Of a stretch of 35,836 bases of DNA, positions 4,301 to 31,282 are shown one piece after another. The stretch covers positions 1 to 35,836 of the IMG/VR virus record IMGVR_UViG_3300005827_000048. One strand, written 5' to 3'. The DNA is from a virus. The notes below the pieces were generated by a model. The model had not been told where the DNA came from and ran no database searches. It saw only the letters and a list, made by a program, of their open reading frames with translations. A program made the position numbers and the translations under genes. The stretch's first letter is position 1. Every line of letters begins with the position of its first letter.

Positions 4301-4728
4301 CAGATGTGATACCACTGCCCAGTTTGTAGCACGGTCGCCCCGCTTATGCGGTCTGCGCTGCTTACGAAATAGCGCAGGCTTGTTGTAGTCGTGTACAGTA
4401 CAGGGTAAGCGCCCTCGGCATCCGGGCGACAATCTATCATGGTATCCAGGTTTGCAATGGTATTCCAGCGCGCCCAAAAGTCGATTGTGAAATCATTGAC
4501 CAGGAAGGATAAATCCTTTGCGCCGTCACCAAAGATATAATCCCCCGTGCCATCAAACAAAGCGGATGCCCCGCCGAATTTGCTTTGTGCGGTGTCAATC
4601 TGCGCATTACCGCCCACTCCCCACGTGCGCCCGGATTGATCAGTAAACGTGGTTGCGCCGTCTGCTCCATCCATGTGGAGTAGAACCTTGACCTGTGTCT
4701 CATCGAAGGCGTCTAATAAGCCGGTCAT
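1306..4728 (-). CDS. Large tail hub/tip protein with LamG-like and PKD domains
   Basis: A 1140-residue protein follows the tape measure and two small genes, the place of the Tal-like hub in siphoviruses. About residues 10-215 look like a concanavalin/LamG fold (FGGASALFDGTGDY, FTIDFWARWN, DEFRIVVG). About 365-450 is a PKD-like Ig domain (AYAWTFVG, YDAAGTYRVYLTLTD). About 460-800 resembles the tail-associated hub region. A Pro-rich linker follows, then a C-terminal beta-rich region. LamG and PKD modules usually bind glycans or other surface polymers, so the protein probably both caps the tail tube and touches the host surface. It overlaps its neighbours by ATGA on both sides. No peptidase or lysozyme motif was recognised, so tail-linked wall degradation is not supported. 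Confidence 0.75.
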   Translation of the reverse strand: MTGLLDAFDETQVKVLLHMDGADGATTFTDQSGRTWGVGGNAQIDTAQSKFGGASALFDGTGDYIFGDGAKDLSFLVNDFTIDFWARWNTIANLDTMIDCRPDAEGAYPVLYTTTTSLRYFVSSADRISGATVLQTGQWYHICLSRVAGITRLFLDGVQEGANYTDASNYLNTTNRPLVGMGYSGNAFDGWIDEFRIVVGTGVSSAFTPPTAAYANTTYLQNQRAAGRWKSYKLAIPAHNTIYTARVNGTPGSLDSVQSIPFDGGSGTITNVRAGMDMWIGSAAGLKDIGIVRIAEDATLTPFQIGAVSGVQIANDQYLTVKDNHGLWGKDSFVTDSDELQDGRYAYDPNTSLAPLVNIGPMARVLDLTGASVSTQFAAPTIYSPTGATISAYAWTFVGASASSGTTTATPSATYDAAGTYRVYLTLTDSTGAQTTVTRLVLVNPTAATVTDLQLSGDIDSGGWECRFEGLDGVDLSELYDRAPVVLYRKDYAGTATAGSQGEYDGCENVRFVGWIDGQSISVNPEFGTVSFTAHGPAWWMERITLGGVSIQDGTSPAWHHYATLNADKALYRLARWQSTLYSICDVNLSGTTDRQYTCGTQPGSLWAQLSDIAARKLLAKIWCDPLGCVWVTVPPSLLDSTDKAALEILFDCVTSDIAEEISFNAETVDTGAIVELGALTYDGTNERTIYSRAPGNKVDRFGSVDAPAAELSGSTQAEINRLAGDYLGMVNSTFPAVEFELSWCLDYPDFLRRIITLTLASSATPRGLAAWSQKRFYPVSMEYSFSAETGAESTMLTLAEETDGVDGITFLPPDAPGVDDWEFPPFSAGDFDLTPGLSGWDPPVIPPEIPPEGDCSTAPGNAFRLTWFPSKLSGIEGPLESFAYRPCTLRPASYAEGPTSVSIRCKVVGDAASNLAIYAIDAEQTPVLTGSGLAFDGTFLTANFDPGVSPLAVAGFKIVLTSGPSTDGAQAALEVSPATYVLLSDGGGTNTWSADFTNIGYGIIKWDWVTSFNENSILFNTAIQQQISYRTDSTAYIYATLFFTPSDSIGYAGLGPDNNINGTVWREGLNQPYLKYTLGLCNAIDPLTLFTSISYQRGWYPGSGTAQGLHTSVAAVYISTMNIERSIYLGDSLVYDVCP

Positions 4729-5144
4729 GGGGTATACGTGGCAAGGTTGCTAAACCGAAACTCTACCGGCTGAAACGCGCCTTCCGTGCCCGTACCATGC
4801 CCGCGAAACTCGTAACCATCGGGCAATTCGGGCCAATGCATGATTGCCGAGTAATATCCGAATGTGACGTTATTCTCTCCAGTCGTGCGGATCACAACGG
4901 ACACGGACGCCGCCGGGCAAATTGCGCGCAAAGCTGCCCACATATCTCCAGGGATGAAGCCAAAACGCCACACAGCAGACGGGAACCCGCGCGCGTAGCT
5001 TGATCCGTCGATACAATCCACTGTTTCGGAGTAGGGGATAAACTTCGTGCCTTCACCCGGATAGATTGACGGTAACGCGCTCAGCGTTTCAACGTTCACG
5101 CGCCCCGCGTAAGTCGTGCCGATTTCAAAGGATGATACGCTCAT
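4725..5144 (-). CDS. Minor tail protein, function unknown
   Basis: This 139-residue protein sits between the tape measure region and the tail hub and overlaps both neighbouring genes by four bases. It is beta-strand rich, with no signal peptide or membrane segment. Aromatic and glycine residues are frequent (YPGEGTKFIPY, FGFIPGDMW, WPELPDGYEF). Siphovirus genes in this position often encode distal-tail or minor tail components joining the tube to the hub. The short length argues against a full distal tail protein, which is usually above 200 residues. I do not recognise a specific family. The role is inferred from gene order alone. Confidence 0.6.
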   Translation of the reverse strand: MSVSSFEIGTTYAGRVNVETLSALPSIYPGEGTKFIPYSETVDCIDGSSYARGFPSAVWRFGFIPGDMWAALRAICPAASVSVVIRTTGENNVTFGYYSAIMHWPELPDGYEFRGHGTGTEGAFQPVEFRFSNLATYTP

Positions 5145-18404: not shown

Positions 18405-19100
18405 TTATTCGCCTGTATTACTGACTTTCGAGAGCGGAACGGTCGGACGTGCGCCGCCAGTTTGCGCATTGGATTGCGCCGCGTTATCTGTTTCGCCTGT
18501 TCCGCAGGTTTCCCGCTTCGGGTATGGTTTAGCGAGCGGGGCTATTTGTTTGCGCATTGCATCGTCAAGGGGGTATAGATAGCGGTATTTTCCGGGCGTC
18601 TTTATAATACTTGCGCCTTTCGGAATAGCCTTTTTTGTATTATGACCATGCCCATTATACCGCCGCGGGTCTATCATATCTCCGTTTATTTCTAGCATTT
18701 CCGCGCCTTGTGTTATTCCCGCGAATATCCAATTCATCGCCTGATAAATTGCGCCGTTGTGCTTGTGAAACGGGTCAGCGAAAGAGATAAGTATTCTTAT
18801 TCCTGGGTTTTTCTTTCGCAACATTCTAATTGCTATACTAACAATTTTGCTAACCGGGGATGCATGGTTGTTTAGCGCAACTCTTGTTAGTTCTGCAAAT
18901 TGAAAGTTTTCTAATCCATAAGGTTTCCCAAGTGACGGGCTTGCGCCTAATCCAAAAATAATTACACCGATAAATTTATTGTCTTCCCAAGCTCCGAGAT
19001 AGTTACTTTTATTGGCGGGCAGCGTTTTTGAATAATGCCAATGTTCCACCGCATACCGCGCCGCTTTTGCATCGCACCAATCCAGCCGTAACTCTGTCAT
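18405..19100 (-). CDS. mom: Mom-like DNA base modification protein (GNAT fold)
   Basis: A 231-residue protein with the strong signature of the Mom family. In phage Mu, Mom converts adenine in DNA to a carbamoylmethyl derivative and blocks restriction. Visible motifs are RLDWCDAKAARYAVEHWHYS at the N terminus, LGAWEDNKFIGVIIFGLGAS, FAELTRVAL, SPVSKIVSIAIRML, ILISFADPFHKHNGAIYQA and MNWIFAG. All are in the order found in Mom and related acetyltransferase-fold proteins. The last 40 residues are a low-complexity tail. It overlaps the ParB-like gene by ATGA and lies upstream of the terminase, so it is expressed late, just before packaging. Mu mom is under tight translational control; no equivalent control gene was recognised here. 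Confidence 0.85.
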   Translation of the reverse strand: MTELRLDWCDAKAARYAVEHWHYSKTLPANKSNYLGAWEDNKFIGVIIFGLGASPSLGKPYGLENFQFAELTRVALNNHASPVSKIVSIAIRMLRKKNPGIRILISFADPFHKHNGAIYQAMNWIFAGITQGAEMLEINGDMIDPRRYNGHGHNTKKAIPKGASIIKTPGKYRYLYPLDDAMRKQIAPLAKPYPKRETCGTGETDNAAQSNAQTGGARPTVPLSKVSNTGE

Positions 19101-23479: not shown

Positions 23480-23508
23480 ATAATACGACTATCCACGCAA
23501 TATGTCAA
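23480..23508 (-). promoter_or_regulatory. Leftward promoter for the regulator and membrane operon
   Basis: TTGACA (23508-23503), a 17-base spacer and TATTAT (23485-23480) on the minus strand form a near-consensus sigma-70 promoter. The transcript would start near 23473, directly at the ribosome binding site of the regulator gene. Confidence 0.82.
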
Positions 23509-23531
23509 GCAATTGTTCAAAACGCTTGACA
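23503..23531. promoter_or_regulatory. Palindromic operator spanning both divergent -35 boxes
   Basis: TGTCAAGC (23503-23510) and GCTTGACA (23524-23531) are perfect inverted copies separated by 13 bases. Each copy contains the -35 box of one of the two divergent promoters, so one bound protein could silence both. Confidence 0.75.
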
Positions 23532-23554
23532 AGTATATACTTATCTGATATATT
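23526..23554 (+). promoter_or_regulatory. Rightward early promoter
   Basis: TTGACA (23526-23531), a 17-base spacer and TATATT (23549-23554) form a near-consensus promoter for the early operon. The spacer holds a perfect 12-bp palindrome, AAGTATATACTT (23531-23542), a second possible operator. Confidence 0.85.
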
Positions 23555-25857: not shown

Positions 25858-25913
25858 CCCCGCCGCCCGTGCGATGGGCGGCAATCTGGCCCGCGCAAAG
25901 CGGGCAGATGGTG

Positions 25914-25919
25914 TATAAT
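25914..25919 (+). promoter_or_regulatory. -10 box of a probable promoter for the replication leader
   Basis: A perfect TATAAT lies downstream of two GC-rich hairpins, with no good -35 box at the right distance. Transcription would start near 25926 and give a leader of about 177 bases before the replication initiator gene. Confidence 0.45.
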
Positions 25920-25931
25920 CAAATCAATCTA

Positions 25932-26084
25932 GTGCGATGAACGTAAGCGCACAACCAGCTTGGCGGCTGGAAATAGGTAGGGCAGCATCACCTTTATTTC
26001 TGGGTGTCTCGTCTGTCTTTTATGCACCTACCTGCATAACCGCCAACCGAGACACGGGACACCCAGAAGCAAAGGTGATTTTTT
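25932..26084 (+). ncRNA. Structured leader of the replication gene with terminator hairpin
   Basis: About 150 bases without a gene hold an ordered set of hairpins. GTGCG/CGCAC pairs at 25932-25936 with 25948-25952. CCAGC/GCTGG pairs at 25955-25959 with 25966-25970. A long stem follows, in which 25987-26012 pairs with 26054-26079 with few mismatches. Six T residues come directly after it, as in an intrinsic terminator. Inside its loop is a small hairpin TATGCA/TGCATA whose loop CCTACC(T) at 26027-26033 is complementary to AGGTAGG at 25975-25981. This allows a pseudoknot or an alternative fold. The ribosome binding site of the initiator follows the T run. No known riboswitch class was recognised. 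Confidence 0.7.
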
Positions 26085-26102
26085 ATTCACGGAGGTTACG
26101 CA

Positions 26103-26930
26103 ATGAGTAAGACGGTTTTGGCAACAGTAGATGGATTTACCCCCGTCATAGACGCAGTGGTGCAAGATGTAGGGCCGATGGCTGCACTTGCGTTCGGTAA
26201 GGTTTGGCGCTACTGCCAGATGAGTGATGGGGTATGCAAGGCAAGCCAGGAACGCATGGCGGAAGAATTGAAAATCACCCGCCAAACGATGAACACCCAC
26301 ATCGAAACACTGGTAAATGCTGGTTATCTCGTAGACACGACGCCGGGATTATTGGGTGTCCCCCACGTTTACGCCGATACTGGTAAGGCCAACCTGTCAA
26401 TTTCTTTTACAGGTAGTTGTCAAAATAACATACACCTACCTGTAAAGAATTTTGACACTAAGATAGTATCTAAGAAAGAAGATAAGACACTTGGGGATTT
26501 AGAACGCAGAACCGACGCCACGATCAAAGGCGATCTTGCGCAAGCATACATCGACTTCGCAATGGCGCCAGGTATGAAGAAGTCAATCCGAATGGATAAC
26601 ATTGCAAGTGTAATCAATGTCCGACTCGGCATCAATCCGGGTAAACGCTGGCAGGACTTCATGGAGTACGCAGACCAACGCGCCCAAAAAGACGGTCAGC
26701 TTCTTACGGTGTTCTTGGACTGGCTACAATGTCAGCCCGGCTTCGATGTTTCATTTTGGCCGCCCGCTAAACTACAGGAAAACTGGCCGCGCGCCTTTCA
26801 AAATGCCGCCGCGCCGAAGTCTGCAATCAGTGACGAAGAAAACGCCCGCATCCAATTTGAGCTTGGCCGCCCCGCACCTGCCGATCAATGCGTTCCTAAT
26901 CCGGGCCGCCGCGCAAGGGTGACGGCATGA
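26103..26930 (+). CDS. Replication initiator (phage O/replisome-organiser-like)
   Basis: A 275-residue protein. About residues 35-85 form a winged helix-turn-helix (CKASQERMAEELKITRQTMN, then ETLVNAGYLVDTTPG), as in phage O-type and plasmid Rep proteins. A poorly conserved linker (about 95-135) is encoded by AT-rich DNA containing a large inverted repeat (26395-26457), the probable origin. The C-terminal half is helical and would recruit the helicase or its loader (MDNIASVINVRLGINPGKRW). It starts seven bases after GGAGG, right behind the leader terminator. The next genes are a small protein and a DnaB helicase, which supports initiation of replication as its role. Confidence 0.78.
   Translation: MSKTVLATVDGFTPVIDAVVQDVGPMAALAFGKVWRYCQMSDGVCKASQERMAEELKITRQTMNTHIETLVNAGYLVDTTPGLLGVPHVYADTGKANLSISFTGSCQNNIHLPVKNFDTKIVSKKEDKTLGDLERRTDATIKGDLAQAYIDFAMAPGMKKSIRMDNIASVINVRLGINPGKRWQDFMEYADQRAQKDGQLLTVFLDWLQCQPGFDVSFWPPAKLQENWPRAFQNAAAPKSAISDEENARIQFELGRPAPADQCVPNPGRRARVTA
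26395..26457. other. Candidate replication origin: nested inverted repeat inside the initiator gene
   Basis: The arms 26395-26416 and 26436-26457 are inverted copies matching at 18 of 22 positions. They are built of TGTCAA/TTGACA outside and TTTACAGGTAG/CTACCTGTAAA inside, with a 19-base centre. The region and the next 50 bases are AT-rich compared with the surrounding gene. It encodes the linker of the initiator protein. This mirrors lambda, where O binds iterons inside its own gene. The inner motif AGGTAG/CTACCT also occurs twice in the leader (25975-25980 and 26028-26033). Confidence 0.55.
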
Positions 26931-27127
26931 ACCGCGAACTGCAAGAGATAATCATGGGCATACAGGAACACAGGGACTATCTGCAATTACTCATGGATCA
27001 AATTGACGCGGGGACATTTCCAAAGGCAGATCCGCGCATAGTTGTCAGGATTGACGACGCAAAAGTATTGAGCCGCTTTTCGAGCGTCGAGGCGCTGGCG
27101 GAATGGCTAGCGAAAGGATGGGAATGA
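26927..27127 (+). CDS. Small protein between initiator and helicase, possible loader or adaptor
   Basis: A 66-residue, mostly helical acidic protein (MNRELQEIIMGIQEHRDYLQ, VEALAEWLAKGWE). It overlaps the initiator by ATGA and the helicase gene by four bases. Genes in this slot often encode helicase loaders or their small partners, but this one is too short for an AAA+ loader. The function is unknown; an adaptor role is suggested only by position. Confidence 0.55.
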   Translation: MNRELQEIIMGIQEHRDYLQLLMDQIDAGTFPKADPRIVVRIDDAKVLSRFSSVEALAEWLAKGWE

Positions 27128-28509
27128 TGACAACCACTAAAGCCCCTTATTACGTTGCCCCACCTGAACCGCAATTTCAGGAATACGCCGAAGCGCCCAC
27201 TCCCCAGGGCCGCGAAGAGGAAGCCGCGCTGATCGGCGCGTGCCTGCGCCGGGGTCAGTTGTTCGATGAACTACGCGAGCAGGTCAAGCCCGCATCTTTC
27301 GGATGGTCAGCCTACGCGGAAGCCTGGCAGGCAATGGGCAAACTGCACGCCGCCGGGATGGGCATTGATGCGGTCATGGTCAGCGATGAACTCGCCCGCC
27401 TGGGCCGTCTGGATACCTGGCAGATGCACGACGGGCCGATGTTCGCCGGGATTGGCCGAGCCGCTGTGTCTTACGTGCGGGATCTGGGCCAGCCGCAAAA
27501 CGCGAGAAGCTACGCCGCCGCCGTGCTGGATTACGCGGCTAAACGGGAACTCAGCGAGATTGCCAACCTTATGGCGAAATGGTCAGCCAATGGCCGCCGG
27601 GCCGCTGATATTCTCACAGACATTGAAAAGAAGCTCAGCGCCGTACAGGTCTCGGGCGGGCTAAAAGCGGATGCGCACACAGCCACGATGAAGGAAGCAC
27701 TCGCAAAAGCATACGACCAGACAGACAAGGCAAGCCGGGGCGAGATAACGTACATCCCGACAGACTATAAGGCGCTGGATCAAATCGTTGTAGGGTTTAC
27801 CGCTCCCGACTTGTGGATTATTGGAGGGTTGCCCGGCATGGGCAAAACTGCGCTCATGCTCAATCTTGCGCGCAATGCCGCGAAGAACGGAGCGCGGGTG
27901 ATGTTCTTCACGCTGGAAATGGCACGCGAACAACTCGCAATGCGCATGGTCAGCATGTACAGCGGGATCAGCTACCAAAAGCAATTGACGGGCCACATGC
28001 CGGATGATGATTGGGCTGTGTACAACACGGCTATTGAAGCCATCGAACGGGACGACATGGGTATAGTTCTAAACGACATGCCCGCGATAAGCCCCGCCCG
28101 CATCCGTCAGCAGTTGCGCAAGAATGGGCCGTTTGATCTCGTCTTTGTCGATTACCTTCAAATTATGGGGCCGGATGAAAAGTACGATGTCAGGAACCAG
28201 GAAGTAGCCGCAATCGCGCAAGCCCTGAAAGACACCTGCAAAGAGTTCAGCGTGCCCATCGTAGCCGGGGCGCAAATGAACCGCGAAAGTCAGAAGGGCC
28301 GCAGCAACGCCCGCCCGCAAAATTCAGACCTGGGCGAGAGCAGCAAGATTGAGCAAGTGGCAGACAAAATCCTGTTTGTTCACGGCGAGAGCCTGAACAG
28401 CACAGCCCGCGAGATAATCGTGAGCAAGCACCGCAACGGGCCGACAGGGTCGGCCAATTTGACATACATTGGATTCAAGACATTATTCCAGGATGGGGAA
28501 AAACTATGA
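27124..28509 (+). CDS. dnaB: Replicative DNA helicase, DnaB type
   Basis: A 461-residue hexameric helicase. The N-terminal domain (about 30-150) is helical and typical of DnaB (EEEAALIGACLRRGQLFDEL, then YAEAWQAMGKLHAAG). The RecA-like C-terminal domain has the Walker A motif GGLPGMGKTA (about 233-242) and FTLEMAREQLAMRMVS (motif H1a). Walker B is DLVFVDYLQIMGP, followed by GAQMNRESQKGR and the DLGESSKIEQVADKILFVHG arginine-finger region. All DnaB motifs are present, so it is likely active. Two ATGs (27124, 27127) overlap the previous stop. It is the only fork enzyme in the genome, so the host must supply polymerase and probably primase. Confidence 0.93.
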   Translation: MMTTTKAPYYVAPPEPQFQEYAEAPTPQGREEEAALIGACLRRGQLFDELREQVKPASFGWSAYAEAWQAMGKLHAAGMGIDAVMVSDELARLGRLDTWQMHDGPMFAGIGRAAVSYVRDLGQPQNARSYAAAVLDYAAKRELSEIANLMAKWSANGRRAADILTDIEKKLSAVQVSGGLKADAHTATMKEALAKAYDQTDKASRGEITYIPTDYKALDQIVVGFTAPDLWIIGGLPGMGKTALMLNLARNAAKNGARVMFFTLEMAREQLAMRMVSMYSGISYQKQLTGHMPDDDWAVYNTAIEAIERDDMGIVLNDMPAISPARIRQQLRKNGPFDLVFVDYLQIMGPDEKYDVRNQEVAAIAQALKDTCKEFSVPIVAGAQMNRESQKGRSNARPQNSDLGESSKIEQVADKILFVHGESLNSTAREIIVSKHRNGPTGSANLTYIGFKTLFQDGEKL

Positions 28510-30781: not shown

Positions 30782-31282
30782 ATGAAAGAACTGACAGCAA
30801 GGGAGAGCGGAGTTGCCCACTGTATCTATTGCGGGATGAGTAACGCCCAAATAGCAAAGCATTATTCAACATCGCTACAGACGATAAAAAATAAAATAAC
30901 TTCCGTTATGGGGAAAATAGGGACAAGAGATAGAACCATACTGGCTATATGGTGGGCTAGATACGCAATATACGGAAACGAGCGCCCCGTATACTCGCCA
31001 GACAAAAGAGCAGGAATTTACAACCATCACGCATTAGCCCTGAAATCTGCCGGAGGCTCCGGAGTCACAAAGAAGCAGCGCTCCGAAATACTGCAAATTA
31101 ATGGCGGGATCTGTGAATGTTGCGGGGCAAAGTCTAATCTTACAATTGACCACGTTGTGCCACTTTCTGTTGGCGGAGAAAATAGCCCGGATAACTGCCA
31201 AGTATTGTGCCGTTCTTGCAACTCAAAGAAAGGAAAAAAATCGACAGACTACAGAAAATTAGTACCAATGGGTTACTCGTAA
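30782..31282 (+). CDS. LuxR-type helix-turn-helix fused to HNH endonuclease
   Basis: A 166-residue protein of two domains. Residues 4-60 match the LuxR/GerE DNA-binding domain (LTARESGVAHCIYCGMSNAQ, IAKHYSTSLQTIKNKITSVM, GKIGTRDRTI). Residues 100-150 are a complete HNH nuclease: zinc cysteines Cys111/Cys114 and Cys143/Cys146, catalytic DH at 123-124, and Asn138. The combination suggests an endonuclease with its own DNA-targeting domain, for example a homing-type nuclease, or a regulator that can cut its site. It has its own promoter and leader hairpin, unlike its neighbours, which suggests an acquired mobile gene. The fold assignment of both halves is strong; the target is unknown. Confidence 0.8.
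   Translation: MKELTARESGVAHCIYCGMSNAQIAKHYSTSLQTIKNKITSVMGKIGTRDRTILAIWWARYAIYGNERPVYSPDKRAGIYNHHALALKSAGGSGVTKKQRSEILQINGGICECCGAKSNLTIDHVVPLSVGGENSPDNCQVLCRSCNSKKGKKSTDYRKLVPMGYS

Follow-up and report, generated by a model that had tools for sequence, protein, structure and literature searches.

The replication initiator gene of this phage is preceded by a structured leader RNA whose fold is kept in at least 13 related phages. Because that fold persists despite wholly different sequences, we regard it as a real control RNA for phage DNA replication, and the structure itself is close to certain. Our preferred reading, which from sequence comparison we hold to be slightly better than an even bet, is that the 5′ leader of the replication operon would act in cis as an attenuator, switched by a pseudoknot and operating with no antisense RNA. 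With this leader, the replication operons of Chloroflexota-type phages, in which to our knowledge little is known about the timing of DNA replication, gain a structured RNA at their head that is supported by covariation and has no counterpart in Rfam 15. Coordinates throughout refer to the window, that is, the whole 35,836-nt stretch of DNA analysed (positions 1-35,836 of IMG/VR record IMGVR_UViG_3300005827_000048), in which the region studied occupies 25858-26102.

The gene that follows this region, rep (26103-26930, plus strand, with an ATG start codon at 26103), encodes a replication initiator of 275 amino acids with an N-terminal winged helix-turn-helix, and its product matches PHROG 270 "replication initiation protein" (E = 1.8e-6) and HTH_11 (1.7e-4). 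A DnaB-like helicase gene lies downstream of rep (27103-28509), and terminase, portal, capsid, and baseplate genes are present on the same IMG/VR contig. No integrase was found among the ORFs scanned in the window, and no Rep homologues were found in named phage and plasmid records. Within rep, an inverted repeat (ACAGGTAG...CTACCTGT) spans 26409-26443, and in relatives L003, L011, and L012 iteron-like direct repeats occupy a comparable part of the gene. These repeats suggest an origin within rep, as in lambda O. Elsewhere in the window, divergent consensus promoters (23480-23554; TTGACA-17-TATTAT on the minus strand and TTGACA-17-TATATT on the plus strand) lie between the leftward structural and rightward early genes, a single protein encoded at 30782-31282 combines a LuxR-type (GerE) helix-turn-helix with an HNH nuclease domain, and a gene for a Mom-like DNA modification protein (18405-19100; PHROG 1384, E = 7e-55) adjoins a DNA methyltransferase/ParB-like gene.

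The 245-nt region 25858-26102 folds at −105 kcal/mol, whereas dinucleotide shuffles average −77.3 (SD 5.0), which gives z = −5.6; none of the 200 shuffles is equally stable. From a TATAAT box (25914-25919) to rep, the leader consists of two 5′ hairpins, a stem of about 25 bp, and six T, all on the plus strand. The box is the putative −10 element of the leader promoter, which here matches the consensus at 8 of 12 positions and has no good −35. Hairpin A (GTGCG...CGCAC, 25932-25952), predicted by folding, is not universal among the relatives and is missing in L024. Hairpin B (25955-25970), with stem pairing that is conserved in the relatives, joins CCAG and CTGG through an 8-nt loop (CTTGGCGG) that holds segment a (TTGGCGG, 25960-25966). 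Segment b (TAGGTAGG, 25974-25981) follows, and after it comes the 5′ arm (S5, 25987-26011) of the long terminator-like stem, identified by folding and by covarying basal pairs. Apical hairpin C (ATGCA-CCTACC-TGCAT, 26022-26037), which has an equivalent in the relatives, exposes segment b′ (26027-26034) in its loop, and segment a′ (CCGCCAA, 26040-26046) adjoins the 3′ arm of the stem (S3, 26048-26079, from folding and alignment), which contains the Shine-Dalgarno-like AAAGGTGA. The six-T tract directly after the stem (26079-26084) is invariant in nine aligned leaders, and the Shine-Dalgarno GGAGG of rep lies at 26091-26095.

An earlier sequence-only reading had placed a long stem, six T, and a ribosome binding site at these positions and had pointed to the complementarity between the apical loop CCTACCT (26027-26033) and AGGTAGG (25975-25981, within segment b); both are present as claimed. 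It overlooked a second contact. With TTGGCGG in segment a complementary to CCGCCAA in a′, the apex offers a partner to each of the upstream segments, a′ to a and b′ to b; covariation and the folding of truncated transcripts support both b′ and a′ as partners. Just ahead of the TATAAT box, and reaching into the stretch where its −35 would be expected, is a pair of neighbouring GC-rich hairpins (25863-25909) that lack a T run; the leader RNA probably does not include them. An open frame of 57 aa (25937-26110) runs through the leader into the start of rep; it has no Shine-Dalgarno and is not conserved, and since no conserved ORF with a Shine-Dalgarno was found across the leaders either, a leader peptide was rejected. 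The sequence CACCTACCTG recurs exactly at 26433 inside rep. Pairing of leader and origin through it was also rejected and the recurrence judged to be chance, because the contact segments of the relatives have no consistent match of this kind.

The relatives were located through Rep and comprise IMG/VR contigs, Anaerolinea/Chloroflexi MAGs, and one contig in an archaeal MAG bin. Thirteen other phages of Chloroflexota type have the same leader layout ahead of their rep operon. Its common elements are the promoter, hairpin B (loop of about 8 nt), segment b, the long stem with its apical hairpin, the T tract, and, after these, whichever gene opens the rep operon. Except for the base of the 3′ arm and the T tract, these leaders are unalignable by sequence, and because of this divergence MAFFT/RNAalifold on nine of them recovers hairpin B only; the helices were therefore registered by hand and tested by permutation. 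Complementary pairs in the relatives include TTGGAAG/CTTCCAA and GGAGAGG/TCTCTCC in L003, TTTGGTAG/CTACCAAA in L023, TTTGGCAG/CTGCCAAG and AAAAACGA/TCGTTTTT in L024, and CTGGCTA/TAGCCAG and GACACGAAG/CTTCGTGTC in L175. Ten leaders (subtype I) have the order a, b, S5, b′, a′, S3, so that a:a′ and b:b′ nest and together form a single hairpin, Hx, whose loop holds S5. The other subtype (L012, L016, L171, and L020) has a′ before b′, with a′ in the loop of the apical hairpin, making a loop-loop contact.

Covariation among the relatives, to which the sequence-only reading had looked for a decision, is strong and extends to the stems. In the permutation test, applied to a set of 11 leaders and later to 14, the pairing score of each leader's 5′ segments with its own apex was compared with their scores for the apices of all the other leaders, with 100,000 random re-pairings. 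Across the 14 leaders, which are mutually related and whose segment limits were set by eye, none of the 100,000 re-pairings reaches the observed value for loop a with the apex (z = 6.1), for segment b with the apex (z = 6.8), or for the unsegmented 5′ region with the apex (z = 6.0). The helices registered by hand in ten leaders are 98-100% paired, and five helices show two to four Watson-Crick types per registered position. Both sides vary in the hairpin B stem (39 of 40 cells paired over 10 leaders) and in the basal pairs of the long stem (40 of 40), and an equivalent of apical hairpin C is present in all ten. Three leaders were examined once the rule had been fixed: L175 (contacts of 7 and 9 bp) and L020 (6 and 6 bp) fit clearly, and L171 fits mainly at b:b′, which is strong there, its a:a′ being weak. 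The a:a′ contact is also weak in L012 and L016, and b:b′ is unconvincing in L027. On this comparative evidence, both long-range contacts and all helices are shown to be kept by compensatory change while the sequence diverges.

If the leader is a cis-acting attenuator, RNA polymerase would first make a, b, S5, b′, and a′, and a:a′ and b:b′ would close as the nested hairpin Hx around S5 while S3 is still unmade. When transcripts cut just before S3 are folded, a:a′ forms in 9 of 13 and b:b′ in 8 of 13 (L020 was not in this set); for most type I leaders, Hx is accordingly the fold to expect at the last moment before S3 allows a terminator. Once Hx is closed, the polymerase-tethered S3 could not quickly wind about two turns around S5, so the terminator would be delayed and the polymerase would read through; readthrough, with the Shine-Dalgarno (inside S3 in several relatives) left open, would turn rep ON. 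Where Hx is slow or blocked, the stem would form immediately, ending transcription at the T tract and shutting the ribosome site, which would leave rep OFF. The balance might be set by transcription speed, by a phage or host RNA-binding protein, or by released leader acting in trans. In six relatives (L003, L011, L021, L024, L171, and L175) the Shine-Dalgarno must lie in the 3′ arm because an ATG comes within a few bases after the T tract; in these leaders the stem would also block translation and may thus double as a means of Shine-Dalgarno occlusion.

The sequence-only reading spoke of mutually exclusive or pseudoknotted folds, and covariation bears out a leader capable of forming a pseudoknot. 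Exclusivity, on the other hand, is not required: Hx and the terminator arms have no bases in common, so the folds could coexist and need not be alternatives. The linkers in most type I leaders (2-8 nt from b to S5, 9-21 nt from the end of S5 to b′, and 0-9 nt from a′ to S3) are also compatible with side-by-side packing. Exclusion might be a matter of topology and kinetics, S5 in the loop of Hx being impossible to wind unless Hx opens, or Hx and the stem might coexist as a compact pseudoknot, as the linkers permit. Both could hold in succession, with Hx and antitermination coming first and the full pseudoknot later. The putative antiterminator role of Hx rests on a topological argument, and it raises the question of whether termination can still be prevented by a pseudoknot that occupies neither terminator arm. 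In the attenuators and riboswitches that we know of, alternative helices compete for one strand; the mechanism proposed here, if true, would be an attenuator switched by loop capture and topology and not by strand exchange with a terminator arm. A further, very doubtful elaboration is that the terminated sense leader, rising with genome copy number, would serve as a dosage sensor by pairing in trans through a and b with a′ and b′ of nascent leaders, blocking the cis pseudoknot and enforcing termination. Such a sensor, if real, would provide copy control or superinfection exclusion without an antisense gene and would explain the fast diversification of the paired segments.

Some features of the leader would also suit a stand-alone small RNA, in which the promoter-to-T-tract unit of about 150 nt acts in trans, with replication or superinfecting phages as possible targets, and rep just happens to be downstream. 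The unit has its own promoter and a terminator-like end, a compact pseudoknot fold would suit a stable RNA, and the first gene after the leader varies among the relatives (rep, an HNH endonuclease, or other small ORFs). However, the unit is always found at the head of the rep operon and shows no conserved complementarity to rep or the origin region, and in the six leaders with a start codon just past the T tract the only possible Shine-Dalgarno is in the stem, so that the mRNA of the downstream operon must include it; we consider a free-standing RNA unlikely. HNH endonuclease genes lie between leader and rep in three relatives (L009, about 350-610; L021, about 4537-4971; L175, about 4576-4970), which indicates that the leader would control the head of the operon and not rep alone. 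That the RNA remains when the first gene changes also tells against a protein-binding operator, in which the pseudoknotted leader would be bound by Rep or a different phage protein that thereby represses its own synthesis, at the level of translation or of transcription. So does the finding that, other than around the T tract, no unpaired residues are invariant. Such an operator, for which the leader pseudoknots of T4 and RB69 that autoregulate a replication protein (gp32) from diverged sequences offer a precedent (PMC535899), seems to us decidedly unlikely. The long inverted repeat beside a replication gene might also be read as a DNA-level element, such as a cruciform, an origin, or a Rep-binding site. 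This is scarcely credible, given that the covarying contacts are RNA-type long-range pairs across the stem, that promoter, T tract, and Shine-Dalgarno all fix one strand, and that the origin-like repeats are located inside the rep genes instead.

The sequence-only reading proposed copy control of the plasmid kind by an antisense RNA. Under such a scheme, modelled on pT181, pIP501, or IncI plasmids, the antisense RNA would bind hairpin B or the apical loop and so bring about attenuation. The UUGGCG loop, presumably the same loop sequence as in IncI-type rep leaders, carries a YUNR motif and, with its loop-to-downstream pairing, resembles the IncI rep leader. In plasmids, antisense RNA is well established as a means of attenuating rep, and it drives the attenuators of pT181 and pIP501 (PMC4981023, PMC8383071). 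Of this proposal the attenuator-like structured leader stands and the antisense RNA does not. The weak minus-strand pair TTGGCG/CATAAA that had been noted as promoter-like is present, but its −35 is simply the complement of the a′ strand, and we rejected it as a by-product of a′; the best minus-strand match in this leader is equalled in 198 of 200 shuffles. In 12 of 13 leaders, all but L016, the antisense promoter matches do not exceed those in shuffled sequence, and no minus-strand promoter-like site was found in the window from 24.7 to 27.8 kb. Sense promoters matching the consensus at 10-12 of 12 positions, by contrast, lie directly upstream of the leader in nine relatives, with TTGACA-16/17-TATAAT in most relatives. 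This, combined with the lack of a conserved leader peptide, led us to keep the attenuator and drop the antisense RNA: antisense control is not supported at the level of promoter sequence, and the plasmid-style scheme as a whole is very improbable.

The leader resembles the pT181/pIP501 attenuators in having an intrinsic-terminator-like hairpin immediately before the ribosome site of rep and upstream segments that pair with the hairpin region. It belongs to a phage and not a plasmid, its a and b pair with the terminator loop where the plasmid segments pair with a terminator arm, and, in a further difference from these attenuators, neither arm of the terminator contributes bases to its antiterminator-like hairpin; a terminator-like hairpin and T tract precede the rep start, and no alternative helix uses a terminator arm. 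A hairpin-loop-to-downstream pseudoknot before rep is shared with IncI/IncB/IncL-M leaders (the ColIb-P9 repZ pseudoknot) and is evident here in a:a′, whereas the phage leader makes two contacts where those leaders make a single one, each reaching the apex of a long stem that ends in a T tract, no translated leader peptide or antisense RNA was found in it, and its loop sequence is not conserved among the relatives. As far as its sequence tells, the leader lacks defining features of both the pT181/pIP501 attenuators and the ColIb-P9 pseudoknot leader. Fluoride and ZTP riboswitches likewise form a pseudoknot during transcription that competes with a downstream terminator. In the fluoride riboswitch, the pseudoknot strand overlaps the terminator base (PMC11077080), whereas the phage contacts have no base in common with the terminator arms and nothing like a conserved ligand pocket can be seen. 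The T4/RB69 gene 32 leader is similar in being an mRNA-leader pseudoknot of a replication protein with a sequence that diverges between phages; it differs in consisting of a pseudoknot of about 28 nt and UUAAA repeats, in acting through translational repression by gp32, and in having no terminator-like stem.

Rfam gave no match (gathering score or E < 0.1) in the window or in four relatives, and a miRNA match at E = 0.36 was taken as chance. The leader RNA is apparently undescribed in the literature searched, a coverage that mostly excludes subscription journals. A descriptor scan of 472 kb found these leaders heading rep operons, its few remaining matches resembling those of a reversed control, and a DNA-pattern scan of viral contigs for the 3′ arm and T tract returned, among the matches listed, coding noise and no new leader. 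At least seven rep-bearing contigs have no such leader nearby, and the leader is thus not essential for rep function. Variant leaders with similar, long complementary contacts and no T tract occur in L025 (2781-2946) and L026 (4777-4973) and may represent a version of the switch that works through translation alone. Two unrelated contigs start within the leader (L009, 1-150; L046, 1-125), possibly as a result of assembly breaks at the structured region, or by chance.
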